Program-made: the position numbers and the translations under genes
Part shown: positions 5,989 to 52,346 of the stretch, one piece after another
Layout of the letters: the number at the start of each line of letters is the position of its first letter
Numbering within the stretch: the first letter of the stretch is position 1
Assembly: GCF_005239225.2 (NCBI RefSeq)
Contig: NC_133284.1
Span: 47,400,697 to 47,464,696 of the forward strand
DNA length: 64,000 nt
DNA from: Populus alba
Taxonomy: Eukaryota > Streptophyta > Magnoliopsida > Malpighiales > Salicaceae
Direction of reading: 5' to 3'
Notes under the pieces: generated by a model
The model's input: only the letters and a program-made list of their open reading frames with translations
Database searches by the model: none
What the model was told of the DNA's origin: nothing

Positions 5989-6005
5989 CGAGCCAAGGCA
6001 AACCT

Positions 6006-6017
6006 GCTCTGATACCA
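6006..6017 (-). other. gypsy primer-binding site (tRNA-Met type)
   Basis: On the minus strand it reads TGGTATCAGAGC, two bases from the end of the 5' LTR. This is the usual plant initiator tRNA-Met primer-binding sequence, used to start minus-strand cDNA. Confidence 0.9.
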
Positions 6018-6019
6018 AT

Positions 6020-6365
6020 TGACACAGCAAGAAAATAACAGAGGGATCCTCACGTTCACCCTCAAGAGTTCATCTGGAATCCACCAGAAAATGAGATAAG
6101 TCTCAAACTGTATTGAATATTTGGAATACAAAAGTGACCGTAAGACAATGCTTACATTGTGTATTTATTCTACTTGTAACATGCATGATTAATTATAGCT
6201 ACTGAATGCTATTTAAAACTTGACGTTTCTACTTGTAACATGCATGATTAATTATAGCTATTGAATGTTATTTAAAACTTGACGTTTAATACTCAGGACC
6301 TCTTCGTCTTCACTATGCACCTATCAATTTGTTCTTCAATTTCCCCTGCCAAGCGTTCTACATCA
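6020..6365 (-). repeat. gypsy 5' LTR (346 bp)
   Basis: Partner of 1178-1523. It adjoins the primer-binding site on its left and the resumed copia reading frame on its right. Confidence 0.93.
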
Positions 6366-7953
6366 GAGTAAGGCGAATTCCACCCTGGATGCAAGACTAT
6401 GAAACAAGAGAGAATCTGTTAGAAGAAGAGGACTTAAATGCCATGATTATTCTTACAGAAGATGATCCATCCACATTTGAGGAAGCCGTGAAGAGCAAGA
6501 AATGGAGAGATGCCATGAATAAAGAAATTGAGGCTATTGAACGCAATAAAACATGGGTTCTGACTACCCTACCCGAAGGAGTAAACAACATTGGGGTTAA
6601 ATGGATATTTAAAACCAAACTCAATGAAAGTGGTGGGATAGATAAATGCAAGGCTAGACTTGTGGCAAAGGGATATGCACAACAGTATGGAATTGACTAC
6701 ATAGAGGTCTATGCTCTAGTTGCAAGATTATATACCATACATTTGATAATTCTTTAGCAGCTTAAGAAGGATGGAGTATCTTTCAACTAGATGTGAAAAA
6801 CTCATTTCTGCATGGTGAACTCAATGAGGAAGTCTTTGTCCAACAGCCTCAAGGATATGAGAAAAAGGGTGAGGAACACAAGTTTTATAAATGAACAAGG
6901 TGTTATATGGCCTCAAACAAGCTCCACGAGCTTGGTATAGCAAAATTGAGGCTTACTTTGTCCACGAAAGCTTCAAAAAGTGTTATTGTCAATATGTATG
7001 TTGATGATTTGATCTTTACTGGGAATGACAAGAACATGTGTGAAGAGTTCAAGAAGCTCATGATGCTGGAATTTGACATGTCAAACTTGGGAAAGATGAA
7101 GTATTTTTTGGGAATTGAGGTGATACAAAATCCTGAAGGGATTTATATATGTCAAAGGAGGTATGCTCAAGAAATCTTAAAATGATTTGGCATGGATAGA
7201 TGCAACTAAGTCAAGAATCCTATAGTTCCAGGCTGCAAACTGTCAAAGGATGAGGAGGGAACCAAGGTTGATGCAAGTATGTTCAAATAGGTGGTTGGCA
7301 GCCTTATGTACTTAACTGTAACCAAAACTGATTTAATATATGGTGTGAGTCTTATTAGCAGGTTCATGTCATGCCCAACGGAGCAGCACTGGTTAGCAGC
7401 AAAAAGGCTACTTAGATATCTTATGGGAACAATAAACTTGGGCATCTTCTACAAGAAAGGAGGGTGCAAGAAACTCATAGCCTACTTAGATAGCGACTTT
7501 GCTGGAGATATAGATGATCACAAGAGTACTACAGGATGTGTGTTTATAATCAGCTCTAGAGTAGTATCATGGTCGTCTAAGAAACAGCCTATTGTTAGTT
7601 TATCAACAACCGATGTTGAGTACATCGTTGCTGCCTCATGTGCATGTTAATGTGTTTGGCTAAGAAGAGTCTTGGAGTAGCTTGGATGTGAACAGAAAGA
7701 ATACACTATAATCTTGTGCGATAATAGTTCTAGCATAAAACTTTCCAAGAATCCTGTTCTCCATAACAAAAGCAAGCATATTGATATCAGGTTTCATTTC
7801 CTTCATGAAATGGTGAAAGATAATGTGGTTAACTTGAGTTACTGTAAAACTGAAGATCAGATAGCCGACATTATGATAAAACCTCTCGGGTTAGAGGTGT
7901 TCTTAAAGCTTCGAAGATTGCTGGGATTGTGTGAAATTCCAAACATAAACTGA
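6366..7953 (+). pseudogene. copia relic A: reverse transcriptase and RNase H segment
   Basis: Continues the copia pol after the gypsy insertion. The RT N-terminal part (6390-6757) has the blocks KWRDAMNKEIEAIERNKTW, GVKWIFKTK and KARLVAKGYAQ. Stops and small frameshifts follow between 6757 and 6907. The next piece (6907-7185) holds the catalytic YVDDLIFTG and the FDMSNLGKMKYFLGIEV block. RNase H spans 7291-7650 with KLIAYLDSDFAGD and the block around SLSTTDVEY, and a last piece at 7714-7953 includes HIDIRFHFLHEMV. Stops at 7183, 7288 and 7648 show it is inactive. Normally this part copies element RNA into DNA. Confidence 0.9.
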
Positions 7954-17349: not shown

Positions 17350-19784
17350 TTTAGATTAGCCTTAAACAAACCAAGTTTCATCCTTAGACATTCCAGCCGT
17401 GAGTTAAGAAGTGCTTTAGTCATAATATCAATAAGTTGAACATCTGATAGTAATGAAGCTTTATAAGTAGATTCTTCTGAACTTCTCTTATGGAGTGAAA
17501 TTTCACATTAATGTGCTTGGTTTTGTCATGTTGAGCATGATTTTGAGCAATGGAAATGGCAGACTTGTTGTCATAATAAAGCTACTACTTAGCCCAAATC
17601 AGCAAGTAATTTGTTTAACCAAATTACTTGATTTGCAGCAGCTGCCATGGAGATATATTCTGCTTCTGCAGTTGATTGTGTGCCACCACCTCTTGCTTTT
17701 TTGCATTCCAATAGATTGCACCTGAACCAATGGTGAAAATATACCTAGAAGTGATTTTCATGTCATCAACACTCCCTACCCAGTCACTGTCTGCATATCC
17801 AATTAATTTTACTCCTCTTGTCTTTGAGTACCAAATGCCAAGGTCGAATGTTCCTCTAATATACTTCAACACCCTCTTAGCAACTCTCATGTGAATATTG
17901 ATAGCAATTTTATAAGGTGTCAGCATAAAAGTGACATCACCAACTGCAGACCATCTTCATCTTGTTTCAGATACAAGGTAGCTTCATTTTCACTTCTTTT
18001 GAATCCCAGTTGAATCAAATGAGTATCAATTATGCTATACTAGGCCATTGGTGCTTGCTTTAAGCCATAAAGAGCGTATACTTTGTGTTCATGACCAACA
18101 ACTTCAAAGCCTTCTGGTTTCTCAACATAGGTTTCTTCGAGTATCCTGTTTAGAAAAGCAAACTTGACATCTAAATGATAAACTTTTCATTCCTTTTGAC
18201 CTGCAAGTGCAAGTAGAAGTCTTATAGTGTCATGCCTAGCTACTCGTGCAACTTGAGCAAAGCCTTTAACAACCAATCTAGCCTTGTGTTTGAAAATTCA
18301 ACCATTTGCATTGAATTTGGTTCTGATGACCCACTTCACACCAATTTCCTTTTTATCTTCAGGAAGTTCTGTTAATCTCTAAGTTCCATTTCTTTTAATG
18401 GAATCAATTTTTGATTTTATTGCATCAATCTAAGCTGGAACTCTTGCAACTTTGGTTTATTTTGTAGGCTCAACATGTACAAGATTACATCTTTCATACA
18501 CATCAGACAATGGCCTCACCTTAAGTATTGATGTATCTGAAGTTGCTACAATGTCTAGAAAACCTTCAACACCAGTTCTTCTTACTTTTGATTCAGGAGC
18601 TGTTTTGGTTGTCTGATCAACTTCCTTTAACTCCCAATTCCAGTAGGAATTCGTATCAAAATGTACATCTCTGCTAATCTGAACTTTAGCTACATTCAGA
18701 TTGTATATTCTGTAACCTTTAGATTATGCCGCATATCCCATAAGAATTCCTTTCTCGGTTCCTTCATCAAGTTTCCCTCTTTTAGCAGATGACACATGAA
18801 AGTAGCACAATGATCTTGCACTTTGAGATGTTTAGCAGTAGGTCGTACACTAGACCATGCTTCTAATGATGTTTTGATTTGAACAGACCTAGTTGGTAGT
18901 CTATTAAGCAAATATACTGAAGTATTTACTGCTTCAGCCCATAGAAACCTTGGTAACTTCTTTTTAAACAAAATACATCTGGACATCTCCATCACAGTCC
19001 TGTTCTTCCTTTTAGAAACTCTATTTTGATGTGGAGAGTATGGAACTGTCAACTGATGTACAGTCCCAACATCTAGACAAAAGTCATTGAACTCCTTCGA
19101 AGTATACTCTCCTTCATTATCAGTTCTCAACACCTTAATTTTCTGACCACTTTGAGTTTCAGCCATACTCTTGAAGTTTCTGAACATTGAAAGTGCTTGT
19201 GACTTGGTTTTCAAAAAATAAACCTAAGTCATTCTACTAAAGTCATCAATGAATAATATGAAATACACATTATTGCTCAAAAAAGCGGTGCTCATTGGTC
19301 CATAGATGTCTGAATGGACTAACTCTAGCTTGTGAGTGGCTCTTTTGGATATACTTTGAGGAAGTGATTGTCGGTGTTACTTCCCAAGTTCATAGCTTCC
19401 ATAGGTTTGGGCACTAACCTGAATTTCAAGCATATCTTTTACCATACCAGCATCATACAACAACTTTAATGATTTTAAATTGTAATGACCAAATCGTTTG
19501 TGCCAAACAATACTTTCATCAATCTTGGCATTGAACATATGCCCTTCAATAGCATTGAGCTTCAAATAGAAGCTATTACCATCCATTTTGATTTTTACTA
19601 TCTCTGAATCATGTGTATCAGTGTTAAAGTAAAATCTCTCTTTAAAAGAGACTTCATAACCATTTCTTAGCATCTGTGCAACACTAAGGAGATTTTGATC
19701 TAGTTCTGGAATGTAAAGAACATTTGTGATGGTTTTATACCTTTATTTGTCCTGACTAAAACAGTGCCTTTTCCATTAGCCTAC
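17350..19784 (-). pseudogene. copia B pol (integrase, RT, RNase H), broken
   Basis: In minus-strand order: GAG-pre-integrase (19673-19377, WHKRFGHYNLKSLK); integrase (19214-18696, LRTDNEGEYTSKEF); RT pieces (about 18500-17935, including YSIIDTHLIQLGF); RNase H (17926-17624, KLIGYADSDWVG). Two inactivating changes stand out besides stops. The catalytic glutamate block reads NRVSKRKN, so the Glu is a Lys. The RT stretch holding the YxDD motif is absent, with the frame jumping from the RT palm to the RNase H connection near 17935. The 5' side ends abruptly at 19784 against an Athila LTR. Confidence 0.85.
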
Positions 19785-20738
19785 TGATTCGTACTTAAAA
19801 GTGCATGTTTATTAAGGTTTTATATCATCATTTTGCACTTGAAATATCAATAACTCGTTAACTAAAACATGTTTTATAATAACAAGTTTGATACTATAAG
19901 ATACCTTAATTTATGGTAAATGCTCATCTTAAATGCAGGACTGTCACATAAATAAAAGTATTGATTGATGAGTTTAAGCATTGAAAGTGAAAGGAAAAAG
20001 AGATGGCCAAACTAAGAAAAGAGATGTCGGTGCAGTCCAAACCGGAACATTGCTCGGTAATTGGATCATATCTGGAGCTCTATATCTCGGATTTAGGTCC
20101 ATTTTATATGGATGGAAAGGTAAGAAAAAGGCCTACAACTTTCATGTGGAGTCCAAGATTTAAAAAGGTCGTTTTAAAGTTCAAATTGAAGGAACAACAA
20201 AGAAGTCCGAAGCTGTCCTGCAGCCCAAACACTATTTAGTGTTCAGCCCATATCTTGAGTTCTAGAAGTCCAAATGACCTCATCTTTTTTTTGTTGGAAA
20301 GCTGAGACAATTTCCTAGAACATTCCTAAGGATTCTGGGCAAATTATGATGTTAGCAATGATGTGTTGTTCAGACAAGAAGACAAGGATTGTCACCAAGT
20401 CAAGATGTGGCCACCCACTCATCAATTAGTCAACAAATCAATAGTTCTAAATTTTGGCCTATAAAAGGAGGCACTTACCATGTATTGAGGCATCTTGGTT
20501 TCCAGATCAAGATCATGCTCTTGCTTTCTCTCTTTGCGTTGCTTATGTTTTGCTTTCTTTAATATCAAGTTTATGCACTTTATTTCCTTTCCTTTACTTA
20601 GTTAACTTCTTTCTCATTTATGTTCGTATCTTGTTCATTAATGTTTCTTTCTTTTATTATGTTCAGCTAAGTAAATTATATCAAGGTGAAAAGGGTACAC
20701 TAATGGTGTAAGAATAAGTATAATATAAACTTAACATG
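19785..20738 (+). repeat. LTR5: truncated Athila-type LTR, plus orientation
   Basis: Starts with the LTR terminus TGATTCGTACTTAAAAG and runs through the TATA region to AACTTAACATG, about half of the 1745-bp LTR. It faces LTR4 in opposite orientation across a short spacer. Confidence 0.9.
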
Positions 20739-20751
20739 TATAAAGCTAATA

Positions 20752-21672
20752 CATTAGTGTACCCTTTTCACCTTGACATAATTAACTTAGCTGAACATAA
20801 TGAAAGAAAGAAACATAAATGAACAAGATAAGAACATAAATGAGAAAGAGGTTAACTAAGTAAAGCAAAGGAAATGAAGTGCATAAACTTGATATTAATG
20901 AAAGCAAGACATAAGCAATACAAAGAGAGAAAGCAAGAGCATGATCTTGATCTGGAAACCAAGATGCCTCAATACATGGTAAGTGACTCCTTTTATAGGC
21001 CAAAATTTAGAACTATTGATTTGTTGACTAATTGATGAGTGGGTGGCCATATCTTGACTTGATAACAATCCTTATCTTCTTGTCTGAACAAGACGTCATT
21101 GCTAACATCATAATTTGCCCAGAATCCTTAGGAATGTTCTAGGAAATTGTCTCAGCTTTCCAACAAAAAAAAGATGAGGTCATTTGGACTTCTAGAACTC
21201 AAGATATGGGCTGAACACTAAATAGTGTTTGGGCTGCAGGACAGCTTCGGACTTCTTCGTTGTTCCTTCAATTTGGACTTCAAAAAGACCTTTTTAAATC
21301 TTGGGCTCCTCATAAAGATTGTAGGCCTTTGTCTTACCTTTCCATCCATATAAAATGGACCTAAATCCGATATCTAGAGCTCCAGATATGATCCAATTAC
21401 CGAGCAATGTTCCGGTTTGGACTGCACCGGCATCTCTTTTCTAAGTTTGGCCATCTCTTTGTCCTTTCACTTTCAATACTTAAACTCATCAATCAATCCT
21501 TTTATTTATGTGATAGGCCTGCATTTATGATGAGCATTTACCATAAATTAAGGTATCTTATAGTATCAAACTTGTTATTATAAAACATGCTTTAGTTAAG
21601 GAGTTATTGATACTTCAAGTGCAAAATGATGATATAAAACCTTGATAAACATGCACTTTTAAGTACTAATCA
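20752..21672 (-). repeat. LTR4: truncated 3' LTR of Athila element 3
   Basis: Ends at TACTAATCA (21672), next to the purine tract of element 3. It breaks off at 20752, about 920 bp into an LTR that is 1745 bp elsewhere. The break lies at nearly the same LTR position as that of LTR5. Confidence 0.9.
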
Positions 21673-22310: not shown

Positions 22311-22875
22311 ATCAATACTATCTTTTTTCTTTTTTCTTTTTTCTTTTTTTTTTTTGCAAATTATATACTATCATTTCCCTTAGTTGTTACCTTCACCAAA
22401 AGAACATAATTAATGTAATAATCCAATGTGCAACCCACAATCATATGTTAAAGTGTGTGTGTGAAAATGAAGGTTTAATAATACTTGTTAAATGAGTATA
22501 TGAGCAGAATCAAGTGATAACAATGCGAGAGTTTGTAAACCTGAATATTTCAAGAAGTATTCTAATAGGCCTTGTTATGAATATTGCAAATAACCATTAG
22601 AAAATTTTTACTAAGATGCGTCTCAAGAATAATTCCTCTTTACTCTGCCATCCTAGTAATAACAGCTTTGCCAAATGGTTTTTTTTTTAAAACAAAAACA
22701 GTTAGTTGGTTAGTGTTTTTTTTTAAAAAAACTACTACCCTCTCCCCCCAACCAAAACGAGACATTGTCCTCAATGTCCTAAGGTAGAAAGATAGAGTAT
22801 AGAAGACATCACCTGAAACAACGAACAATGATAAACCTGAAACACACTTAAACAAATATAAGAAGTAACAAAACA

Positions 22876-23323
22876 ACTTATCATAAAAATCATTAACATT
22901 TAACAAACCTATAGGTTTATGGTGAATGTGCAGTTGGGCCCAATATGAAATATGAAAGATCTCTTCCAATGTGCCCAGACCACCTGGTAAGGCAATGAAG
23001 GCATCAACATGGCTAAACATGGCATTCAGTCGATCAGACATTGTTGGGACCTGTAGTTCCTCTCCAATTGCTTTTCCAATGATGTCCTCATTTGCTAAAG
23101 CTTTGGGGACAACCCCCAAAACTTGACTGCCTCCTAAAAATGCAGCCATTGACACACCTCCCATTAACCCAAGGCTGCCTCCCCCATATACTAAATGAAT
23201 CTTTCTCTCAGCTAGTACCCGACCAAGATGATTTGCTGATTCTAAAAACTCTTTTTCTTTCCCAGGACTGGATCCACCGAAAACACAAATATTTCTTATA
23301 TGATGACTTGAGGAACCTGTCAT
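22876..23323 (-). pseudogene. LOG: LOG cytokinin-activating enzyme, C-terminal deletion (copy 1)
   Basis: Intronless minus-strand copy of LOG carried by Athila element 3. About 149 residues match copy 2 (27362-28015), including RNICVFGGSS, YGGGSLGLMGG and the phosphoribohydrolase motif PGGLGTLEE. After NDFYDKL the frame runs into unrelated sequence and stops only at 22640. The cause is a deletion of about 245 bp relative to copy 2, with a CAA match at the junction. It removes the last helices, so activity is unlikely even though the motif survives. The leader up to 23390, with its TATA-like word, matches copy 2. Confidence 0.88.
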
Positions 23324-24361: not shown

Positions 24362-24373
24362 TAAATAACCCGG
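24361..24373. other. 13-bp junction repeat between element 3 and LTR3
   Basis: ATAAATAACCCGG at the junction repeats the word at 24418-24430 inside LTR3. LTR3 lacks its first 8 or so bases (TGACACGA) here. This looks like filler copied from nearby during break repair. Confidence 0.75.
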
Positions 24374-26102
24374 CCAAAAGCTTGATGTCTTTTCCCAAGT
24401 GCAGGAGTGTCGAAGTAATAAATAACCCGGCAAGACCGGGGTCGAACCACAGAGAGGTTAATTGTATAAATTATAAATAACAAAACAACAACAACAACAA
24501 CAACAATAATAACAATAGTAATTACAATACTCAGTACGTGGCGTTGTTACACCTGAGAATGATCCAAAAGACCGGGTCACAGGTTTCCAGCCTATATACT
24601 GAGTTTATGAAAAGATCAAAGGGATATATTACAGAATGTAAATAACAACAATAACAATAATAATAATAACAATAGTAGTAGTAGTAGTAATAGAAGAAGA
24701 TGAAGAAATTAATGAGAACTTTGAGTTGGAAGATTAATGTAAGGATTAACCAATGATAAAAACGAATGTCAAGGTTAGAGGATCCACTAACGGTACTTCA
24801 AACAAGTATAATATAAACTCTTATTACTCAATTGGAAATCACACATAAAGGAGGTTCCCATCAGATTATAAATTGTTAACATGATTACATTAGTTATGTT
24901 ATTCGAATAAAGCTAATACTTGTAAATGTTGGCAGGCATTCATGATTATAACTTATGTTAACAACAAATCAAGTCCCTTTCATAGCTCAGGTGTCGGTTA
25001 TACCATACAGTATGGGCTATGAAAGTACCAAGTATTTGTTGTACCAAGTGTTATACAACATAAATCTAGATTAACCATTTAACAAGCAAAGTATTAAAAG
25101 TGAACAAGATAACAAATATAAAACATGTTAGTTTCCAATGTTAAGGTCCATGTTAAGTTTATATTATACTTATTCTTACACCATTAGTGTACCCTTTTCA
25201 CCTTGACATAATTAACTTAGCTAAACATAATGAAAGAAAGAAACATAAATGAACAAGGTAAGAACATAAATGAGAAAGAAGTTAACTAAGTAAACGAAAG
25301 GAAATGAAGTGCATAAACTTGATATTAATGAAAGAAAAACATAAGCAATACAAAGAGAGAAAACAAGAGCATGATCTTGATCTGGAAACCAAGATGCCTC
25401 AATACATGGTAAGTGCCTCCTTTTATAGGCCAAAATTTGGAACTATTGATTTGTTGACTAATTGATGAGTGGGTGGCCACATCTTGACTAGATAACAATC
25501 CTTATCTTCTTGTCTGATCAAGACGTCATTGCTAACATCATAATTTGCCCAGAATCCTCAAGAATGTTCTAGGAAATTGTCTCAGCTTTCCAACAAAAAA
25601 AAGATGAGGTCATTTGGACTTCTAGAACTCAAGATATGGGCTGAACACTAAATAGTGTTTGGGCTGCAGGACAGCTTCGGACTTCTTCGTTGTTCCTTCA
25701 ATTTGGACTTCAACACGACCTTTTCAAATCTTGGGCTCCTCATGAAAGTTGTAGGCCTTTGTCTTACCTTTCCATCCATATAAAGTGGACCTAAATCCGA
25801 AATCTAGAGCTCCAGATATGATCCAATTACCGAGCAATGTTCCGGTTTGGACTGCACCGACATCTCTTTTCTAAGTTTGGCCATCTCTTTGTCCTTTAAC
25901 TTTCAATGCTTAAACTCATCAATCAATCCTTTTATTTATGTGATAGTCCTGCATTTAAAATGAGCATTTACCATAAATTAAGGTATCTTATAATATCAAA
26001 CTTGTTATTATAAAACATGCTTTAGTTAAGGAGTTATTGATACTTCAAGTGCAAAATGATGATATAAAACCTTGATAAACATGCACTTTTAAGTATTAAT
26101 CA
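24374..26102 (-). repeat. LTR3: 3' LTR of element 2, shared with element 3
   Basis: About 1729 bp. It starts at 26102 in sense (TGATTAATACTT) and contains TATA at 25419-25427, a microsatellite region near 24490-24680 and the end CTTTTGG without the last bases. Confidence 0.92.
25419..25427 (-). promoter_or_regulatory. LTR3 TATA box
   Basis: Minus strand TATAAAAGG, kept at the same place in all promoter-bearing LTR copies. It marks the likely U3/R border region. Confidence 0.7.
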
Positions 26103-26479
26103 CACCCCCCAACCAGCTTATTACTAGTCCCTAGTAATCTAAAGCGTTAAAATAGAGAAACAATTTGCAAGTTCCACAAAGCAAGGCATTCATCATTCAA
26201 CTTCCATTAATCTATCCAGATAAACAAACTCTCATTAAATTTATATTCCTGCTTCATACTTCGTAAACAAGATATTAATAAACCTTCTTTTTGTGTGCTC
26301 AATGAAAAACATAGATGATGGGGCTTTTGTTGGAAGAAAACAATATTATGTTCAAATGTTTAAGGTGAACTTCCTTGGGTTGGGATTATTATTTTTTCTT
26401 CTTCTTCTTTTTTTTTTTTTTTTTTTTTTATCTTTTTTTTTTTTTATATACACATACAACTTAAAACACAATGTATCTT

Positions 26480-27361: not shown

Positions 27362-28015
27362 TCACAGATGAAGGCTCAAATCTAATCTAAGCTTTTTACG
27401 GCTTTCCTTAGTTGACCAATCTAGACGACTTATGCAGGGATCAATGACAGGGATGAAAGATTGTAGTTGGTCAATCAATTGTTCAGCAGTAGCAGCAGAG
27501 ATTATGATTCGTCGTGCCGAAGATGTTAGAAATTCCTGTTCCACAGCTTGATCAAGGAAAGACAGCAACTTATCATAAAAACCATTAACATTTAACAAAC
27601 CTATGGGTTTATGGTGAATGTGCAGTTGGGCCCAAGATGAAATATGAAAGATCTCTTCCAATGTGCCCAGACCACCTGGTAAGGCAATGAAGGCATCAGC
27701 ATGGTTAAACATGGTATTCAGTCGATCAGACATTGTTGGGACCTGTAGTTCTTCTCCAATTGTTTTTCCAATGATGTCCCTATTTGCTAAAGCTTTAGGG
27801 ACAACCCCCAAAACTTGACTGCCTCCCAAAAATGCAGCCATTGACACACCTCCCATTAACCCAAGGCTACCTCCCCCATACACTAAATGAATATTTCTCT
27901 CAGCTAGTACCCGGCCAAGATGATTTGCTGATTCTAAAAACTCTTTTTCTTTCCCAGAACTGGATCCACCGAAAACACAAATATTTCTTATATGATGACT
28001 TGAGGAACCTGCCAT
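27362..28015 (-). CDS. LOG: LOG: cytokinin riboside 5'-monophosphate phosphoribohydrolase, intronless, inside a retrotransposon
   Basis: 217 residues, the usual LOG length, in one open frame from ATG at 28015 to TGA. LOG enzymes cut ribose-5-phosphate from cytokinin nucleotides in the cytosol and release the active hormone in one step. Visible signs are the Rossmann start ICVFGGSSSG (12-21), YGGGSLGLMGG (46-56) and the family signature PGGLGTLEE (113-121). An Arg at 98 sits where LOGs have an Arg-Lys pair; the Lys is Leu here, so this is a divergent type or slightly altered. Plant LOG genes normally have several introns; none interrupts this copy, so it likely came from spliced mRNA. It lies 253 bp after the extra ORF and upstream of the element's purine box, same strand. 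A TATA-like word (CTATAAATTC) about 65 bp upstream of the ATG, with a GA run behind it, may drive it. Activity is unproven. Confidence 0.9.
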   Translation of the reverse strand: MAGSSSHHIRNICVFGGSSSGKEKEFLESANHLGRVLAERNIHLVYGGGSLGLMGGVSMAAFLGGSQVLGVVPKALANRDIIGKTIGEELQVPTMSDRLNTMFNHADAFIALPGGLGTLEEIFHISSWAQLHIHHKPIGLLNVNGFYDKLLSFLDQAVEQEFLTSSARRIIISAATAEQLIDQLQSFIPVIDPCISRLDWSTKESRKKLRLDLSLHL

Positions 28016-28079: not shown

Positions 28080-28165
28080 AATTTATAGATGAAAAAGTGA
28101 AAATGCAATCATACCACCTATATGTAGGTCAGCTGTAGTCTCACAAACTCTCTCTCTCTCTCTCT
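28080..28165 (-). promoter_or_regulatory. possible own promoter and leader of the captured LOG
   Basis: Minus strand shows a GA microsatellite (28147-28166), then TATA-like CTATAAATTC (about 28079-28089), then a pyrimidine-rich leader to the ATG at 28015. The same layout is kept before LOG copy 1 (23379-23470). Confidence 0.4.
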
Positions 28166-28268: not shown

Positions 28269-28817
28269 CTATGGGTCGGGGATAGGCTTCCCATCCAGTT
28301 TTCTTAAAAACTGGCAAACAGGGTCTTTTTTAGTCAGATTCCCAAGACTAAGTCGATCATGTTCTTTATGGAATTGTGGCCATAAATCATGAATTACACG
28401 ATGCACATCTCCACTAGGATGCGTCTCAAGGGTCAACAAAAGATTATCTAAAGACCCCTTACTCAGGCCATCCTTAATGAATTGTATCTTATCTTCACGG
28501 TTTACAGATACCATTCCTAAAGAACGACATGTCGCATTACAAGTCCATCTGGCACATCGATGACAGACTTTCAGTCGTTTTGCACGACGTTTCTTTGCAA
28601 AAGTGCTTTTACCTGTTCCAGGCATGTGTGAAATGAAAGAATTGGATGACTCACCTGATAATCGAACCTTTGCTTCAATTAACCAACGGATATCTTCAGG
28701 AATTCCATGATTCATTAACAACCTCAATCTTGCACACCTAGCACGGTAAATTTTATTAATCGCATTTGGAGGCAAAGCGGGAAAATACCTTTTCAACTTT
28801 TCAAGAGTGGTGTCCAT
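28269..28817 (-). CDS. extra ORF of element 2: basic four-cysteine protein, possibly virus-type nucleic-acid-binding protein
   Basis: 182 residues from ATG at 28817; an upstream in-frame Met at 28931 exists, but MDTTLEK better fits a gene start after a pyrimidine-rich leader. It shows an N-terminal helix-like region rich in Arg and Leu (22-52), a basic cluster KKRRAKRLK (75-83) followed at once by a compact Cys motif C85-x2-C88-x4-C93-x3-C97, and then IQFIKDGLSKGS (111-122). A basic cluster leading into CxxC and a short hydrophobic tail is the pattern of the cysteine-rich nucleic-acid-binding proteins of carla-, allexi- and mandarivirus-type plant RNA viruses. The last 60 residues match nothing I know. 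It occupies the place after pol where Athila elements carry an env-like ORF, so a divergent env-like protein or a captured host zinc protein are alternatives. Open and undamaged; role unknown. Confidence 0.55.
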   Translation of the reverse strand: MDTTLEKLKRYFPALPPNAINKIYRARCARLRLLMNHGIPEDIRWLIEAKVRLSGESSNSFISHMPGTGKSTFAKKRRAKRLKVCHRCARWTCNATCRSLGMVSVNREDKIQFIKDGLSKGSLDNLLLTLETHPSGDVHRVIHDLWPQFHKEHDRLSLGNLTKKDPVCQFLRKLDGKPIPDP

Positions 28818-29027: not shown

Positions 29028-30866
29028 TCAACCTTTAACAATAAGATTATTCAAACCAATGGATTCATTTTCACTAGGAAACTCATCAAAGTAGGCTTTT
29101 AAACGATGTTCATTTACCTTCAAAACATTGTCATTCTTTGGATTCTCAATATCAAGGGCCCCATAAGGATACACATGTTTCAAAATAAATGGACCGCTCC
29201 ATCTTGATCTTAGTTTTTCAGGAAATAAATGGAGTTGAGAATTATAAAGCAAAACTTTTTGACCAGTATCAACTTTTTGACAATTTTCACAAGTTTTGCA
29301 GAATGCATGTGTGTCCTTGAACATGGTGGGCCAATAAAATCCATTTTGTAAGATTTTGGCAGTCGTCTCTCTTGATGAGAATTGACTCCCACATGCTTCA
29401 GAATGACAAAGTTTAATGACATTACTTACCTCATTGTCGGGAATGCATTTTTGAAATATTTGATCAGGATAATTTTTGAATAAGTAAGGGTCATCTAAGT
29501 AAAAGTTCTTCACTTCGTTCAAAAACTTTCCTTTGTCTTTGGTACTCCAGTGAGCTGGCAAATCTCCTGTTGCAAGAAAATTGATATTTTTAGCAAACCA
29601 AGGCATTGAACTGAGAGAAAGTAAGGATTCTTCAGGAAAGTAATCATCGATTGGTGTGATGTCAAATGTCAAATCTGTTGTTACTCTTGACAAAAGATCG
29701 GCATCAATATTTTCGGTGCCTTTTTCATCCGTGATTTCTTCCTGAGAATAAATCATTTGCAAATCTTCATATTCATCCAACTCAATTTTACTCAAAGTAG
29801 ATTCAAGTTGATCATGAACTAATTCTTCAATAAGATCTACTTCTTGTAAATCATTATCATCTCCAGGCTGCTTGCAAACGTTGAAAATATTCATCTCTAA
29901 TGTCATGTTTCCAAAAGATAACTTCATGAGTCCATTCCTACAATTAATCAATGCATTAGAAGTTGCAAGAAACGGACGTCCTAAAATAATAGGAAATGAA
30001 TTACATGCTTCAACAGGTTGCGTGTCCAAGACAATAAAATCCACAGGATAAATGAATTTATCGACTTGTACTAACACATCTTCAATTATTCCTCTAGGCA
30101 CTTTTACAGATCTATCGGCGAGTAAAAGAGTTACAGAAGTTGGTTTTAACTCACCTAGATTGAGACTTTGAAAAACTGAATATGGAAGTAAATTCACACT
30201 AGCTCCAAGATCAAGTAAGGCTCTTTCAATTTTATGTTCTCCAATAAAGCAAGAAATTGTAGGACAACCAGGGTCTTTATATTTCAAAGCATTATTGTTC
30301 TGAAGAATGGCACTTACTTGTTCGGCTAAAAAGGCTTTCTTTTTCACATTCAGTTTTCTCTTCACAGTGCACAAATCTTTCAAAAATTTAGCATAGGAAG
30401 GAACCTGTTTAATAGCATCCAACAACGGTATATTGATCCTTACCTGTTTGAAAATTTCAAAGATTTCAGGGTTGTGATTGACTTTCCTTTGTTTGGTCAT
30501 GGCATGAGGAAATGGAAGTGCTGGCGAGGAATCAGTCTTTTCTTTGCAATGTTCAGGTTCAACCCCTTCCTTACCCTCAGAGATAGACTCATCATCTTTC
30601 TCACAAGGTTCAAGAATAGGTTTTTCAATAACCTTACCACTACGAAGAGTGATGACTGATTTGACTTGATCCATGTGTTGGCTTCCAGAACTACTTGCAT
30701 TTGCATTGTATTGCCCCTTTGGATTTTGTTGTGGTTGAGATGGAAACTTACCTTTCTCTTGGAAACTGAGAGCAGTTGTTAATTTTGCAAGAGCATCTTT
30801 AAAATCGGTCATGCTTTGAGCAAGTTGAGTGTTGATTGTCTCCTGCTTTTCAATGAATGCATGCAA
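29028..30866 (-). pseudogene. element 2 gag end, protease and integrase fragments in one open frame
   Basis: 612 residues without a stop. The first part is the gag C-terminal linker. The protease region follows with LLDLGASVNLLPYSVF, where Athila-type proteases carry Asp-Leu-Gly, and ILGRPFLATSNALINCRNG. After NDLQEVDLIEEL the frame skips all of reverse transcriptase and RNase H and enters the region before integrase (SSMPWFAKNINFLATGDLPAHW), then the H2C2 zinc domain (HSEACGSQF, CKTCENCQK). It skips the integrase catalytic core and ends with the C-terminal GPY/F-like part (LRSRWSGPFILKHVYPYGA). Both skips keep the frame. So the product could process gag but not copy or integrate DNA. The same shortened layout is seen in element 3, so it predates that copy. 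Confidence 0.85.
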
Positions 30867-30965
30867 TGTTTCCTCAAAATTTCTTCTAGGAGGTGGAGCA
30901 TAAGGAGGTGCATATCCATGAGAATTTTGAAAATTATGGTGTGCTTGAAACGGTGGATGTGAAGT

Positions 30966-32020
30966 TTATGCATTGTTGCTATCACTCTTCCAACTAAAAT
31001 TTGGGTGATTTCTCCAACCAGGGTTATATGTTTGTGAGTATGGGTTATGGTTGGGTCTTTGGAAACTGTTTAAAGCATGAGCTTGTTCATGGAGGCATTC
31101 CTTGAAAGAAGGCAAAGTTGGACAATTATTTGTTGCATGCTCATTTGTTTCACAAATTTGACACACAATGTCTTGAACAGATTTTAATTGACCACTCTTT
31201 TTTAATTCTAGTGCCTCGACTTTTCTAGCTAAAGATGCAAACTTGGCTTGGAGGTCATGATCTTCCCTAAGGTTGTGCATACCTCCACTAGATGTATGAG
31301 GTTGAGTTTTACCTGGTGCCTCATAAGTACCTGTGGTGTCCCAATTTTGAGCATTTTCAGCTAGCAAGTCTAGGTACTCCATTGCTTCATTAGGGTCTTT
31401 ATCTTCAAAAGTTCCATTGCACATCAATTCAACCATTTGCCTATCTCTAGGTGTTAAACCTTCATAAAAATGTGAAACCAATCTCCATGTTTCAAAACCA
31501 TGATGTGGGCAAGTATTTAAGCAAATTCTCGATACCTATCCCAACATTGGTAAAATGTTTCTCCTGGCTTTTGAGTGAAAGTGATGATGATTTGTCTTTT
31601 GAAAGAGTTTGTTCTGTGAGATGGAAAAAAACTTCTTTAAAAATTGTTGTTGCATATCATCCCAAGCACGAATGGATCCTGGTCTCAAATTTTGTAGCCA
31701 TGTTTTAGCTTTATCTTTTAATGAAAAAGGAAAAAGCTTTAATCGAATGGTGTTCATGCTACAATTTGAGTCATTATAGGTATTACAGACCTCCTCAAAT
31801 TCCCTTAAATGCAAGTATGGATTTTCTAAGTCTAAAGCCATGAAAAGATGGTAAAAGTTGAATAATGCCTGGCTTAAAATTAAAAATGAGATGCGTCAGG
31901 AGGGAAAACTATGCATGAGGGTGCACTTGTTCTTGTGGGATTCATGTGGTCTCTAAGTGTTCTCATACGGTTATTCTCATTATTCTCATTATGAAGCGAT
32001 TGATTATCTTCTTCGGCCAT
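30966..32020 (-). pseudogene. element 2 gag (Athila type), frameshifted
   Basis: Start MAEEDNQSLHNENNEN at 32020, about 210 bp after the primer-binding site. Typical Athila-type gag blocks follow: ENPYLHLREFEEVCNTYND, FSLKDKAKTWLQNLRPGS, LVSHFYEGLTPRDRQMVE-like words and a zinc knuckle-like CQICETNEHATNNC. Small insertions near 31880 and 31500-31540 shift the frame, and a stop (TAA) at about 30966 separates it from the following 612-residue frame. Gag forms the particle that packages element RNA. In element 1 the same region lacks these frameshifts but has its own stops. Confidence 0.85.
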
Positions 32021-32226
32021 ATTTTCTGAAAATGATGAGGATACCTACAAATCGACCACTTAATGTACGTGACCAAACTCGCATGCACGTGTAAAAAGAG
32101 AAGAAAAAAGAAGAAAAGAAAATAGAAGAAAAAGAAACAAAACAAAACAAAGGAAACAAAAATAGATAAAATGAAAAGTGAAAAGAGAAAATAAATTAAA
32201 TATTATAATTTATACAAGAATTTACC

Positions 32227-32244
32227 TCCCCGGCAACGGCGCCA
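32227..32244 (-). other. element 2 primer-binding site
   Basis: Minus strand TGGCGCCGTTGCCGGGGA, six bases from the LTR2 end. This is a primer site common among plant Athila/Tat-type gypsy elements. The same site occurs at 36018-36035 and, with changes, at 45992-46009. Confidence 0.85.
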
Positions 32245-32250
32245 AAAACT

Positions 32251-33999
32251 TGACACGACCAAAAGCTTGATGTCTTTTCCCAAGTGCAGGAGTGTCGAAG
32301 TAATAAATAACCCGGCAAGACCGGGGTCGAACCACAGAGAGGTTAATTGTATAAATTTATAAATAACAAAAACAACAACAACAACCAACAATAATAACAA
32401 TAGTAATTACAATACTCAGTACATGGCGTTGTTACACCTGAGAATGATCCAAAAGACCGGGTCACAGGTTTCCAGCCTATATACTGAGTTTATGAAAAGA
32501 TCAAAGGGATATATTACAGAATGTAAATAACAACAATAACAATAATAATAATAACAATAGTAGTAGTAGTAGTAATAGAAGAAGATGAAGAAATTAATGA
32601 GAACTTTGAGTTGGAAGATTAATGTAAGGATTAACCAATGATAAAAAACGAATGTCAAGGTTAGAGGATCCACTAACGGTACTTCAAACAAGTATAATAT
32701 AAACTCTTATTACTCAATTGGAAATCACACATAAAGGAGGTTCCCATCAGATTAATAAATTGTTAACATGATTACATTAGTTATCTTATTCGAATAAAGC
32801 TAATACTTGTAAATGTTGGCAGGCATTCATGATTATAACTTATGTTAACAACAAATCAAGTCCCTTTCATAGCTCAGGTGTCGGTTATACCATACAGTAT
32901 GGGCTATGAAAGTACCAAGTATTTGTTGTACCAAGTGTTTATACAACATAAATCTAGATTAACCATTTAACAAGCAAAGTATTAAAAGTGAACAAGATAA
33001 CAAATATAAAACATGTTAGTTTTCCAATGTTAAGGTCCATGTTAAGTTTATATTATACTTATTCTTACACCATTAGTGTACCCTTTTCACCTTGACATAA
33101 TTAACTTAGCTAAACATAATGAAAGAAAGAAACATAAATGAACAAGGTAAGAACATAAATGAGAAAAGAAGTTAACTAAGTAAACGAAAGGAAATGAAGT
33201 GCATAAACTTGATATTAATGAAAGAAAAACATAAGCAATACAAAGAGAGAAAACAAGAGCATGATCTTGATCTGGAAACCAAGATGCCTCAATACATGGT
33301 AAGTGCCTCCTTTTATAGGCCAAAATTTGGAACTATTGATTTGTTGACTAATTGATGAGTGGGTGGCCACATCTTGACTAGATAACAATCCTTATCTTCT
33401 TGTCTGATCAAGACGTCATTGCTAACATCATAATTTGCCCAGAATCCTCAAAGAATGTTCTAGGAAATTGTCTCAGCTTTCCAACAAAAAAAAAGATGAG
33501 GTCATTTGGACTTCTAGAACTCAAGATATGGGCTGAACACTAAATAGTGTTTGGGCTGCAGGACAGCTTCGGACTTCTTCGTTGTTCCTTCAATTTTGGA
33601 CTTCAAAACGACCTTTTCAAATCTTGGGCTCCTCATGAAAGTTGTAGGCCTTTGTCTTACCTTTCCATCCATATAAAGTGGACCTAAATCCGAAATCTAG
33701 AGCTCCAGATATGATCCAATTACCGAGCAATGTTTCCGGTTTGGACTGCACCGACATCTCTTTTTTCTAAGTTTGGCCATCTCTTTTGTCCTTTAACTTT
33801 CAATGCTTAAACTCATCAATCAATCCTTTTATTTATGTGATAGTCCTGCATTTAAAATGAGCATTTACCATAAATTAAGGTATCTTATAATATCAAACTT
33901 GTTATTATAAAACATGCTTTAGTTAAGGAGTTATTGATACTTCAAGTGCAAAATGATGATATAAAACCTTGATAAACATGCACTTTTAAGTATTAATCA
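32251..33999 (-). repeat. LTR2: 5' LTR of element 2, shared with element 1
   Basis: 1749 bp, TG...CA ends (TGATTAATAC...GTGTCA). It is nearly identical to LTR3 over its length by eye, closer than to LTR1 (both read TATTAATCA at the end, where LTR1 and LTR4 read TACTAATCA). Confidence 0.93.
33309..33317 (-). promoter_or_regulatory. LTR2 TATA box
   Basis: Minus strand TATAAAAGG within the U3 end of LTR2. It is the likely promoter for element 2 RNA, which would include the cargo genes. Confidence 0.7.
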
Positions 34000-41582: not shown

Positions 41583-41894
41583 TGTTGAAATTTTGTTAAT
41601 TAAACAAATAGCTAATTCCAGGGAAACAGAAAGGATTCTTAACAAGGAAGAGTGAAGCAAAGAAAAAATAATGCTTTCATAAATAAAGAATACCTATTTA
41701 AAGGTTTACATCTCAACTGCAAGTACTGAAAAATAGCAACAACAATCAGAGTTTGTTGGCACTACTAATACTTAACAGAAAAAAAAAAAATCTAGCTGCA
41801 AAATCTGTTTTAAAACAGGAATACGAAAGACCAAGTCACACAGCAGCATTTATTCCAGTCTTCAGATTCTGGCAAATTCTCAGAAATTATAACA
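41583..41894 (-). repeat. copia B 5' LTR (312 bp)
   Basis: TG...CA ends (sense TGTTATAATT...TTTCAACA). Partner of 17094-17343. It is followed directly by lectin kinase coding sequence at 41895. Confidence 0.88.
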
Positions 41895-43044
41895 GAGTCC
41901 AATAGTTCTGAAGCTCCTGGATTCTGGTAATAATGTCTTAAGAGATGAGAAAAGTGACTCTGGAAGATACCTGTGGCATAGTTTTGATCATCCATCCGAT
42001 ACACTGATTCCAGGAATGAAGCTTGGCTGGGATTTATGGACCGGACTAGAAAGGCGCCTATCATCCTGGAGGAGCTCAGATGATCCTTCTCCGGGAGACT
42101 TAACTTGGGGGATTAAACTACAAAATAACCCTGAGACAATTATCTGGAGAGGATTACAACAGTACTTCAGGAGTGGCCCTTGGACAGGCATTGCATTCAC
42201 AGGTGCTCCAGAACTTTTCCAAAACCCAGTTTTTAAGTTAAATTTTGTCTCGAGTGAGGATGAAGTATATTTATCCTACGACCTCAAAAATATATCAGCA
42301 TTCTCCAGGATAGCTGTACATCAGACTACCAATTATCGTGAAGCCTACACATGGAAGGAAGCAACCCAAACTTGGGTCCTCTACGCTTCTGTGCCAAGAG
42401 ACTCGTGCGATAATTATGCCCTTTGTTGTGCCAACCGGAAATTGGATCATTAATGACTTGCCAATTTGTCGGTGTTTAAAAAAATTCAAGCCTAAATCAC
42501 CAGAGAAATGGGACTTAATGGATTGGTCTGATGGTTGCGTGCGCAATAAACCATTGGTCTGATGGATTCGTGAAATTATCTGGGGCTGAAATGGCCTGTT
42601 GCTACTCATTCTTGGCTAGACAAGAGTATGAATCTCAATGAATGCAGAGCTAAATGTTTGCAGAACAGTTCCTGTATTGCATACAGTAATTCAGATGTTA
42701 GAGAAGGCGGCAGTGGCTGCATAATTTGGTATGGTGACCTGATAGATATTAGACAGTTTCCAGCTGGAGGTCAGGAACTATACATTCGCACGAATCCTTC
42801 AGAATCAGGTATATGCTAAACATTTGTTTTTTTCAATCCATGAGCACCTAGATGCGGCACCATTTACTTGTTTATAGCTTCTTTACTTGTGATTTATCTT
42901 TATTCTAACAATAGTGCACTTTCTTAGAGGCAAAAGCTGAGCCTACGGTAGAGATTGCGGTGATAGTTTCAATAGTCATTGCCATGGTCTCCGGGCTGCT
43001 TGTGTTCTGTTATTGCATTTGCAAACGAAAGGAAAAGTGCAGAG
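41895..43044 (+). pseudogene. G-type lectin S-receptor-like kinase, lectin to transmembrane part
   Basis: Continues the gene begun at 16311. The frame from 41895 reads the end of the lectin domain (LLDSGNNVLRDEKSDSG, WHSFDHPSDTLIPGMKLGW) and the S-locus glycoprotein domain (FRSGPWTGIAFTGAPEL). A stop at 42451 and a frameshift follow; shifted frames give INDLPICRCLKKFKPKSPEK, then the PAN/apple domain (MNLNECRAKCLQNSSCIAYS) to a donor at 42809. The next exon, 42928-43044, is a transmembrane helix (VEIAVIVSIVIAMVSG...) and basic stop-transfer, with a donor at 43045. No kinase domain is found downstream; another copia begins at about 43370. These proteins normally sit in the plasma membrane and signal on ligand binding. 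Family is certain; the copy is dead. Confidence 0.88.
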
Positions 43045-47840: not shown

Positions 47841-47885
47841 TTAAGTGGTCGAATTTGTAGGGTATCCTCATCATTTTCATAAAAT

Positions 47886-50825
47886 ATGGTCGAAGAAGAT
47901 AATCAATCACTTCATAATGAGAATAATGAGAATAACCGTATAAGAACACTTAGAGACCACATGAATCCCACAATAATAAGTGCACCCTCATGCATAGTTT
48001 TCCCTCCTAATGCATCTCATTTTAATTTTAAGGCATTATTCAACTTTTACCTTCTTTTTATGGCTTAGACCTAGAAAATCCATGTTTGCATTTAAGGAAA
48101 TTTGATGAGGTCTGTAATACCTATAATGACCCAAATTGTAGTATGAACACCATTAGATTAAAGCTTTTTCCTTTTTCATTAAAAGATAAAGCTAAAACAT
48201 GGCTATAAAATTTGAGACCAGGATCTATTCGTGCTTGGGATGAAATGCAACAATAATTTTTAAAGAAGTTTTTTCATCTCACAGAACAAACTCTTTCAAA
48301 AGACAAATCATCACTTTCACTCAAAAGCCAGGAGAAACATTTTACCAATGTTGGGATAGGTATCGAGACTTGCTTAATACTTGCCCTCATCATGGTTTTG
48401 AAACATGGCGATTGATTTCACATTTTTATGAAGGTTTAACACCTAGAGATAGGCAAATGGTTGAATTGATGTTCAATGAAACTTTTGAAGATAAAGACCC
48501 TAATAAAGCAATAGAGTACCTAGACTTGCTAACCAAAAATGCTCAAAATTAGGACACCACAGGTACTTATAAGGCACCAAGTAAAACTCAACCTCATACA
48601 TCTAGTGGAGGTATGCACAACCTTAGGGAAGATTATGACCTCCAAGCCAAGTTTGCATCTTTAGCTAGAAAAGTCGAAGCACTTGAATTGAAAAGGAGTG
48701 GTCAATTAAAATATGTTCAAGACATTGTGTGTCAAATTTGTGAAACCAAGGAACACTCAACAAATGATTGTCTAACTTTGCCTTCTTTTAGGGAATGCCT
48801 CCATGAACAAGCCCATGCTTTAAACAATTTCCAAAAGCCGAACCATAACCCATACTCACAAACGTATAACCCTGGTTGGAGAAGTCACCCAAATTTTATT
48901 TATAAGAGTGATAGCAAGAATACACAAACTTATAGCCACCATTTCAAGGACACCATAATTTCCAAAATTCTCATGGATATGCACCTCCTTATGCTCCACC
49001 TCCTAGAAGAAATCTTGATGAAACATTGCATGCATTCATTGAAAAGCAGGAGATAATCAACACTCAACTTGCTTAAAGCATGATAGATTTTAAAGATACT
49101 CTTGCAAAATTAACATCTGCTCTCAGTTTCCAAGAGAAAGGTAAGTTTACATCTCAACCACAGCAAAATCCAAAGGGGCAATACAATGCAAATGCAAGCA
49201 ATTCTGGAGGACAACACATGGATTAAGTCAAATCAGTCATCACTCTTCGTAGTGGTAAGATGAAGAGTCTATCTCTGAGGGTGAGGAAAATGTTGAACCT
49301 GAACATTGCAAAGAAAAGTTTGATTCCCCGCCAGCACTCCCATTCCCTCATGCCATGACCAAACAAAGGAAAGTCAATCACAACTCTGAAATCTTTGAAA
49401 CTTTCAAATAGGTAAGGATCAATATACCTTTGTTGGATGCTATTAAAGAGGTTTCTTCCTATGCTAAATTTTTGAAAGATCCGTGCACTCTGAAGAGAAA
49501 ACTAAATCTAAAAAAGAAAGCCTTTTTAGCCGAACAAGTAAGTGTCATTCTTCAGAACAATAATGCTTTGAAATATAAAGACCCTGGTTGTCCTATAATT
49601 TCTTGCTTTATTGGAAAACATAAAATTGAAAGAGTCTTACTTGATCTTGGAGCTAGTGTGAATTTACTTCCATATTCAGTCTTTCAAAGTCTTAATCTAG
49701 GTGAGTTAAAACAAACATGTGTAACTCTTTTACTTACCGATAGATTTGTAAAAGTGCCTAAAGGAATAGTTGAGGATGTGTTAGTACAAGTTGATAAATT
49801 CATTTACCCTGTAGATTTTCTTATCTTGGATACACAATCTGTTGAAGCATGTAATTCAATTCCTGTCATTTTAGGACGTCTATTTCTTGCTACTTCTAAT
49901 GCATTGATTAATTGTAGGAATGGACTGATGGAGCTATCATTTGGAAACATAACATTGGAGATGACTATTTTCAACATTTACAAGCAACCTGGAGATGATA
50001 ATGATTTACAGGAAGTGGACTTTATTGAAAAATTAGTTCATGATCAATTTCAAACCACTTCCAGTGAAACTGAGATTAATGAATCTGATGATTTGCAAAT
50101 GTTCTATTTTCAGGAAGAATTAAAGGCATGTAATTAGAGACCACAAATTAAAGAATTGCCACCATAATCAATTGAGTCCATACCTTCAAGTGTTCAACCA
50201 CCAAAACCTGAATTGAAGTCGTTACCATTTAATCTCAAATACTCATTTTTGGGAGAAAATGAAACTTCTCCAGTAATAATCTCTTCCAAACTTAATGCAC
50301 ATCAAGAAAGTAAGTTATTACAGACTCTAAAAATGCACAAAAATGCATTAGGATGGACAATAGCTGACATAAAAGGAATTAGCCCTTGGATTTGCACACA
50401 TGATTTGTTTGGAGGAAAATGCTAAACCCTCTAGAGAAATGCAATGAAGGCTTAATCCTAATATGAAAGAAGTAGTGAAAAATGAAGTTATTAAGCTTCT
50501 AGATAATGGAATCATTTATCCTATTTCTGACAGCAAATGGGTAAGTCCTACCCAAGTTGTACCCAAAAAGTCTCGAGTCACTGTGATAACAAATGAGGAA
50601 AATGAGTTAATTCCAACGAGGACTGTTACTGGTTGGCGTATGTGCATTGACTATAGGAAACTTAATTCAATGACTAGAAAAGATCATTTCCCTTTACCTT
50701 TCATGGATCAAATCCTAAAAAAAGTTGCAGGTCATGAATTTTATCGTGATGGCTATTCAACAAAAGCAGGTCATCAGGACAATTGCCGGCTCATTGGAGT
50801 ACCCAAGACAAAAGAAAGTTCTTGA
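47886..50825 (+). pseudogene. gag, protease and RT start of the plus Athila element
   Basis: Gag starts MVEEDNQSLHNENNEN (47886) and is broken by stops and frameshifts at 48066, 48550 and 49054. Readable blocks include FETWRLISHFYEGLTPRDR and the knuckle CQICETKEHSTNDC. Protease is at 49430-50137 (VLLDLGASVNLLPYSVF, ILGRLFLATSNALINC). Unlike elements 1-3 it then continues into reverse transcriptase: EVVKNEVIKLLDNGIIYPIS, SKWVSPTQVVPKKS and TGWRMCIDYRKLN (50463-50730). RT ends near 50770, before the catalytic YxDD, where unrelated and inverted sequence begins. So this line of elements did once encode pol. Confidence 0.85.
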
Positions 50826-50839
50826 ATGAAGTGATCTGC

Positions 50840-51700
50840 GACAATGAGCTGGCAATTGTCCTAAAACAAGAAAATTAACAATATTAGCAAACCAAGGCAT
50901 CGTAGAAACGGAAAGTAAAGATTCATCGGGAAAGTAGTCATCGATTGGTAAAAGAAGGTAAAAGTTGAATAATGCTTGGCTAAACTTTCATGCACGTGTA
51001 GGAAAAGAATAAAATGAAGAAAAGAAAAAGAAAAAGAGACAAAACACAAGAAACAAAAGTTAGATAAAAGAAAAGTGAAAGGAGAAAAATATAACAAAAC
51101 TTATAATTTATATAGAAATTTACCTCCCTGACAACGGCGTCAAAAACTTGACACGACTAAAAGATTAATGTCTTATCCCAAGTGCAGGAGTGTCGAAGTA
51201 ATAAATAATCCGGCAAGACTAGGGTCGAACCATAGGGAGGTTAACTATAATAATAATAATAATATGTTAAAGAGGACTTTGAGATGTAAGACTAATGTGA
51301 GGATTCAACAATGATAAAAAATAATTGTCAAGGTTAGAGGATTCACTAATAGTATTAGAAATAAATATAGTATAAACTCTTTTTATTAATCAACTGGAAA
51401 CCACACTCAAATGAGGTTCCAATCGGATGATTTATCCTTAATAGTTCATTATAAATTTTTAACATGATCATATTAATTGTCTTATTGTAGTAACACCATA
51501 CTTTTAAATATTTTTAGGAATTCATGATGTTAACATATGTTAACAACAAATCAAGTTCCTTTCAGAGCACATGTATAGGTTATGCTATACGGTTGGCTAT
51601 AAAAGTGCTAAGCATTTGTTGTATCAAGTGTTATACAACACAAATCTAGATTAACCATTTAATAAGTAAGTTATTAAGAATTAATAAGATAAAAAGATAA
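50840..51700 (-). repeat. inverted Athila fragments inside the plus element
   Basis: Minus-orientation pieces in order: a scrap of the integrase-region (matches near 29600-29650), a scrap of the gag leader (matches near 35640 and 35880), a primer-site remnant (51125-51142) and an LTR end (51149 to about 51700). It reads like two elements joined in opposite orientation after internal deletions. Confidence 0.7.
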
Positions 51701-52306
51701 GATCTTTTGTTAAAGTGACTCTTAAGACGCATCTTAGTAAACATTCTTAACAAGGTCTATCAGAATACTTCTTAAAATATTCAGGTTTACAAACTCTCGT
51801 ATTGTTATCACTTGATTCTGCTCATATCCTCATTTAACAAGTATTCTTAAATCTTTATTTTCACAAACACACACTTTAACATATGATTGTGAGTTGCACA
51901 TTGGATTATTACATTATTTATATTCTTTTGTTAAAGGTAACAACTAAGAGAAATGGATAGTATATAATTTGCAAAAAAAAAAATAACAAAAAATAATGAT
52001 AATAAAAATATAGATAAGTTTGGTTTCGTAGCCTCCCTAACCTAAGCAATTAAGCCCGAAGAGATGTTTTAACACTTAATACCTTAAAGTCAACTGACTT
52101 AGAAGCTATTGGCTCAACGCTTGTTACATGGGCTGGGGAGAAAAGCTTAAGGGAATAAAATATTGCACTATCTACATATTAGTATCTACAACTCGAGGTA
52201 CTAAGCTTGTAGGGGTGTCTCAACACCTAATGCCCTAAGACCAACTAGTTTGGGAGTCATTAGCCGAAAGCTCGTTACATGAGTTAAAGATGCATTGTGT
52301 TTTAAG

Positions 52307-52346
<40 letters not shown>

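Follow-up and report, generated by a model that had tools for sequence, protein, structure and literature searches.

The region studied here raises the question of how a complete gene of the LOG family came to lie within an LTR retrotransposon of Populus alba, and whether its protein still serves a purpose there. A sequence-only reading of the window (the whole stretch of 64,000 nt that was analysed) had described a complete, intronless LOG frame between an integrase remnant and a polypurine tract, on the element's own strand. This description is correct: the frame comprises 217 codons, and gene and element both lie on the minus strand. Read in this direction, the order is 5′ LTR, primer site, gag frames, gag-C/protease/H2C2 frame, a gene for a cysteine-rich protein (CRP), LOG, polypurine tract and 3′ LTR, with the following coordinates in the window:

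32251..33999, minus strand: 5′ LTR, TGATTA...TGTCA (LTR comparison)
32226..32250, minus strand: primer binding site stretch AGTTTTTGGCGCCGTTGCCGGGGAG, immediately 3′ of the 5′ LTR
30966..31535, minus strand: gag-region frame of 189 amino acids (ORF listing)
29028..30965, minus strand: frame of 645 amino acids, C-part of gag and protease fused to an H2C2 integrase piece (ORF listing, Pfam)
28269..28817, minus strand: CRP gene, 182 amino acids (Pfam Viral_NABP, Carla_C4)
28081..28087, minus strand: TATAAAT, candidate internal promoter, 72 bases 5′ of the LOG start codon
27362..28015, minus strand: LOG gene, 217 amino acids, intronless (ORF listing, Pfam, PDB relative)
26103..26114, minus strand: polypurine tract GGTTGGGGGGTG
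24368..26102, minus strand: 3′ LTR with its final bases missing, adjoining another partial element
22874..23323, minus strand: LOG of this neighbouring partial element, the second in the window and shortened at its 3′ end; codons 1-150, then running into downstream non-coding sequence

The primer binding site presumably fits tRNA-Asp, and the Athila label given in the sequence-only reading is tentative. The gag-region frame at 30966..31535 matched no Pfam family at 0.001, and a Pfam scan of the gag frames of the window copy and of family member L009 gave no match to an ATHILA family. The LTR pair of the window copy differs at 6 of 1737 aligned bases (K2P 0.0035); the far end of the 3′ LTR is missing. 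The family has two LTRs, a 5-base target duplication, a primer site and a polypurine tract, as is characteristic of LTR retrotransposons. Member L009 follows the Ty3/gypsy domain order protease-RT-RNaseH-integrase, with protease, RVT_1, RT_RNaseH and H2C2 on one frame and rve on the adjacent frame, whereas the window copy has protease and H2C2 alone. Neither Pfam nor a search with the RT and integrase blocks of L009 detected RT/RNaseH or the integrase core in it. Because both blocks are missing, the window copy is a shortened form of the family. In the H2C2 stretch at 29270-29736, shortened and long forms are 84-88% alike, with 92-99% in the flanks, and the shortened form may be a recombinant.

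The window contains further element sequences. A seemingly young LTR element lies on the minus strand at 1178-6367, where 348-base repeats (1178-1525 and 6020-6367, 99.4% alike) flank gag-pol frames of 1182 and 399 amino acids. Partial LTRs of the LOG-bearing family stand head to head at 19785-21672 as an inverted repeat (94%). Pieces of a related element on the plus strand, with gag, protease and RT fragments and diverged LTR pieces (76-91%), extend over 47841-54114; the ORF list holds no LOG frame of at least 120 amino acids in this region. By our reading of the translations, the frames at 211-615 and 18696-19742 resemble copia-type integrase and gag-pol pieces, and 41893-42453 is a fragment like an S-locus lectin receptor kinase.

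A genome check for further copies with the same LTR, proposed in the sequence-only reading, found many. With DNA as the query, all 40 places scored in the P. alba genome matched the LOG frame with 98-100% identity over 664-666 of 666 bases; these places were drawn from 1262 first-look candidates, and the copy count is a lower bound. With the LOG protein as the query, 145 of 150 scored rows had no stop in the matched part, a proportion that is not a rate, as the rows were the best-scoring 150 of 1514 candidates. For comparison we took 20 long, 19 short and 20 more diverged copies (L048 and L049 among the latter). In the 20 long copies and the window copy, LOG, the LTR (cover at least 93%) and the CRP (cover at least 85%) were each found in 21/21. 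Both RT and integrase blocks are present in 12 of these 21; L015 has integrase and part of RT, L014 and L016 have RT alone, and six, including the window copy, have kept LOG with neither block.

The LTR pairs of three copies are identical or nearly so (K2P 0.0000 in L018, 0.0006 in L027 and 0.0017 in L025), and in these three, the full set of copies for which both LTR ends could be located, a perfect 5-base target duplication flanks the element. We conclude from these comparisons that the family is high-copy and recently mobile in Populus alba. To judge from near-identical LTR pairs and perfect target duplications, copies of the shortened form, without RT and integrase core, have moved recently as well. 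LOG is intact in 29 of 42 copies and the CRP in 20 of 40. L018, with its identical LTRs, has a stop in LOG, and the CRP is broken in L025 and L027, which speaks against a need for LOG or CRP in cis.

The LOG frame starts with the ATG at 28015, runs uninterrupted and contains PGGLGTLEE. It matches the Pfam LOG family PF03641 at 4.4e-39 over profile positions 1-131 of 131, and PF18306 at 8.2e-15. Its closest solved relative is At2g37210/2a33 of Arabidopsis (3.5e-62), and its fold model is of fair quality (pLDDT 82.8). Domain, PGGxGTxxE motif and the catalytic Arg and Glu together place it in the LOG family.

The missing introns had been taken as a sign that a spliced mRNA was captured, on the premise that host LOG genes carry introns. 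We found the premise to be right at four poplar loci, since coding pieces of host-type LOG that are neighbours in the protein are 1489 (C6), 975 (C9), 1605 (C16) and 1030 (C4) bases apart, where merely 12 to 60 coding bases would be needed. Some of these matches cross stops, as expected for a match entering an intron. Capture of a spliced mRNA is consistent with intron-bearing host genes, but the source was no present poplar LOG, because the element LOGs form an old clade with 47-54% identity to ten host LOGs. Among the 65 proteins of one tree, a branch with 100/100 support separates 34 element-type LOGs from 31 host LOGs (LOG1, 3, 7, 8 and LOGL10 types). With two bacterial outgroups, 17 element-type rows form one clade (99/94), and the host side, at 75/76, is only tentatively a group of its own. 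The element-type clade covers poplar, Acer and Xanthoceras and is separate from the host LOGs sampled. We infer from this single clade that the capture is old and of single origin, and that the gene is no fresh copy of a poplar gene. The location within an element was observed for the P. alba copies, and the Xanthoceras proteins P0101 and P0243 have a gag/protease piece beside LOG; for Reevesia, Melia and further rows such a location is predicted from the tree alone.

Relatives in P. trichocarpa and P. nigra are labeled LOGL10 by NCBI. The name could be taken to mean that a naturally intronless host gene, or else an assembly artefact, was merely hit by an inserting element. We consider this hardly credible, since LOG occupies the same place with CRP and LTR in every long copy, perfect target duplications surround whole elements, and the poplar proteins named LOGL10 fall inside the element clade of the 65-protein tree. 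A recent capture from poplar LOGL10 (P0092, 82% identical) was ruled out by the same placement. In the own genome, 7 of the best 150 scored rows have a LOGL10-like stretch in the last 54 residues (89-96%). The LOGs of L048, L052 and L056 are mosaics, with residues 1-160 near the window LOG and 161-217 near the LOGL10-named P0089, which suggests recombination between element subfamilies.

The sequence-only reading had also seen an extra ORF. Such a frame is indeed present, but its identity had been overlooked. In Pfam, the frame 28817-28269 exceeds the gathering scores of Viral_NABP (1.5e-07) and Carla_C4 (4.2e-06), and both families also match 24 of 25 relatives scanned, which we chose from 120 listed of 606 found. 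From these matches we assign 28269-28817 to the carlavirus-type cysteine-rich proteins. A Cys cluster follows a basic stretch, and in the 25 chosen sequences C93 and C97 are invariant, with C85 and C88 conserved at 90% or more. In the poplar copies the CRP lies 5′ of LOG, and in Acer one annotated protein (P0256) consists of a CRP piece at residues 1-118 followed by LOG at 144-334. Named sources among the 120 CRP relatives listed are Populus alba, P. x canadensis, Xanthoceras and Acer. The structure model of the CRP (pLDDT 51) was too poor for use. In the portion of the source considered here (PMC12172455), carlavirus CRP/NABP-type proteins are reported to suppress silencing, and p12 of chrysanthemum virus B is reported to be a hyperplasia-inducing transcription factor. 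The poplar CRP resembles these proteins in Viral_NABP, Carla_C4, the basic stretch and the Cys cluster, but it sits in a retrotransposon, has a longer C-part and, by our reading, a Cys spacing of Cx2Cx4Cx3C. In viral contigs, 3 pattern matches to LOG and 17 to CRP came up, none of them confirmed.

Many LOG and CRP copies are broken, which would suit a reading of LOG as a functionless passenger of an active element. We counted variant codons against the majority and distinguished private variants (one copy) from shared ones (several copies). Among 21 copies chosen by DNA similarity, shared synonymous/nonsynonymous variants numbered 7/4 in LOG and 14/5 in CRP, and private ones 3/14 and 8/18. When LTR and 3′ non-coding stretches were treated as codons in each of three frames as a control, the nonsynonymous fraction of shared variants was 0.62-0.86. 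For the first 42 LOG copies taken by themselves, a Fisher test did not significantly separate shared from private variants (0.18, or 0.14 with intact copies alone), and the shared variants on their own lay below neutral (p 0.012). The set of 62 copies includes 20 more diverged loci that were selected by LOG protein score and are biased towards conserved LOGs; here variants in at least three copies numbered 47/47 in LOG (p 1e-6) and 34/22 in CRP (p 8e-8) against a neutral expectation of 0.735 nonsynonymous. Variants in exactly two copies numbered 11/12 in LOG and 6/15 in CRP, the latter without depletion, and private ones, at 23/68 and 19/68, had the neutral proportion. Mean dN/dS between copies was about 0.22 (LOG) and about 0.14 (CRP) in older pairs, and 0.39 and 0.86 in young pairs.

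As amino-acid changes are depleted in shared variants and not in private ones or in non-coding controls, these counts indicate that selection has acted on the LOG and CRP proteins along the replicating lineage. The neutral look of the private variants would again fit a passenger, but this depletion, together with a frame that is open across the LOG clade from Xanthoceras to poplar, makes a passenger role improbable. The sequence-only reading had also considered that RNA from the LOG stretch could silence the LOG genes of the host; such a role, acting through small RNAs, would leave the constraint unexplained. High copy number makes element small RNAs likely, but silencing of host LOGs is a very remote prospect, because the protein identity to the ten host LOGs is just 47-54%.

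Whether the product is the cytokinin-activating enzyme that had been proposed depends on its active site. For the LOG of C. glutamicum, the part of the published account used here proposes Arg99 and Glu122 as catalytic residues and Met96, His97, Lys100, Glu125 and Trp129 as the prenyl pocket (PMC4979012). We scored these positions by anchored spacing in C. glutamicum numbering. Host LOGs have M-H-R-K-E-E-E-W at Met96, His97, Arg99, Lys100, Glu121, Glu122, Glu125 and Trp129 in 29 of 29 cases. On the Xanthoceras/Acer side, the element LOGs gave 17 motif rows from 15 of their 17 proteins, with no row for P0242 or P0258, and the same string occurs in 15 of these rows; the exceptions are Acer P0256, without Met and Arg, and one P0243 row without Trp. 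Of 11 intermediate rows, 10 carry Ile or Met in place of Lys and Gln in place of Glu125, and in one row, Melia P0311, Arg is lost as well. In 7 of 7 poplar rows that bear the name LOGL10 or neighbour such rows, positions 97, 100 and 125 are occupied by Ser, Leu and His, respectively. Among the LOG relatives listed, 81 of 119 were scorable, M-S-R-L-E-E-H-W was commonest (37/81), and a few lacked Arg or Glu. The poplar copies keep Met and Trp of the pocket, whereas His97, Lys100 and Glu125 are replaced.

One explanation is that the element LOG is an ordinary cytokinin activator that pushes cells to division or a meristem-like state and so helps the element to reach the germ line. It draws on the LOG family membership and fold, on the catalytic Arg and both motif Glu (Arg98, Glu120 and Glu121 in window numbering), which are invariant in an alignment of 28 sequences, and on the host-type pocket of the Xanthoceras/Acer-side group. 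We nevertheless consider it rather unlikely, since the poplar copies have replaced the very three residues that all host LOGs examined keep. With Arg and Glu conserved and pocket residues replaced stepwise across the rows, the enzyme has probably retained catalysis, and its side-chain site has probably changed stepwise. The replacement of three published pocket residues makes cytokinin activation uncertain; family, motif and fold of the proposed enzyme stand, and its substrate in the poplar elements may no longer be a cytokinin nucleotide. Compared with plant LOG1, LOG3, LOG7 and LOG8, the element LOG is alike in fold, motif and catalytic residues; it differs in the three changed pocket residues of the poplar copies and in the introns of the host genes, checked at four poplar loci.

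Of 61 copies whose upstream sequence is complete, 59 have a TATA-like box before LOG, at -72 in 53 and near -72 in six more. In the window it is followed by a pyrimidine-rich stretch. Its recurrence at -72 suggests that LOG has a promoter of its own. Upstream of the CRP, such a box was found in 13 of 25 copies. A scan for bacterial-type promoters and terminators showed no excess.

Taken together, the sequence shows an LTR element with a CRP and LOG cassette between pol and the 3′ LTR, and we lean towards the view that the products of this cassette manipulate the host cell. LOG would be transcribed either from the LTR or from a TATA promoter of its own; its product would be a dimeric nucleotide 5′-monophosphate phosphoribohydrolase with a shifted substrate and would alter the levels of free base/cytokinin or of nucleotides in the cell in which the element replicates. 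The CRP would bind nucleic acid and then dampen silencing or promote proliferation. Both products may be able to act in trans, because cassette-keeping copies without RT and integrase core moved recently. More tentatively, the element may be virus-like, with the CRP and the pocket-rebuilt LOG opening the host cell to retrotransposition, both in cis and in trans for defective relatives.

One published sentence already notes that Gypsy elements of Citrus and P. trichocarpa contain a LOG-type domain, YgdH (PMC9289625). According to the YgdH passage of that paper, the domain occurs in Gypsy consensus sequences of Citrus sinensis and C. clementina, a finding presented as in line with Steinbauerova 2011, and in Gypsy elements of P. 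trichocarpa, detected only without the filter applied there. These elements share with ours a LOG-type domain in Ty3/gypsy, poplar included; the passage reports domain detection alone, and the data added here concern the CRP, the clade, selection, the pocket and mobility. The same source, as far as consulted, describes Gypsy elements of Phalaenopsis with a functional AlkB m6A demethylase (PMC9289625), which are alike in having fixed a host-type enzyme as an extra frame. They differ in the enzyme, in its tested activity and in having one extra frame, whereas the poplar elements have two, known from sequence. A term search of a review on additional frames of plant elements gave no occurrence of LOG, YgdH or cytokinin (PMC7264820). 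A limited search of the open-access literature found no report of the CRP partner, of selection or of the pocket change, and no paper linking carlavirus proteins to retrotransposons; such absence is weak evidence.

Because LOGL10-named poplar proteins belong to the element clade, poplar LOG gene counts may include element genes. With LOG, the role of extra frames in plant Gypsy elements becomes testable on a defined protein. If the cassette works, a retrotransposon lineage would be maintaining by selection, to its own advantage, an enzyme of hormone or nucleotide metabolism together with a virus-like protein, which would be a plant parallel to the accessory genes of retroviruses.
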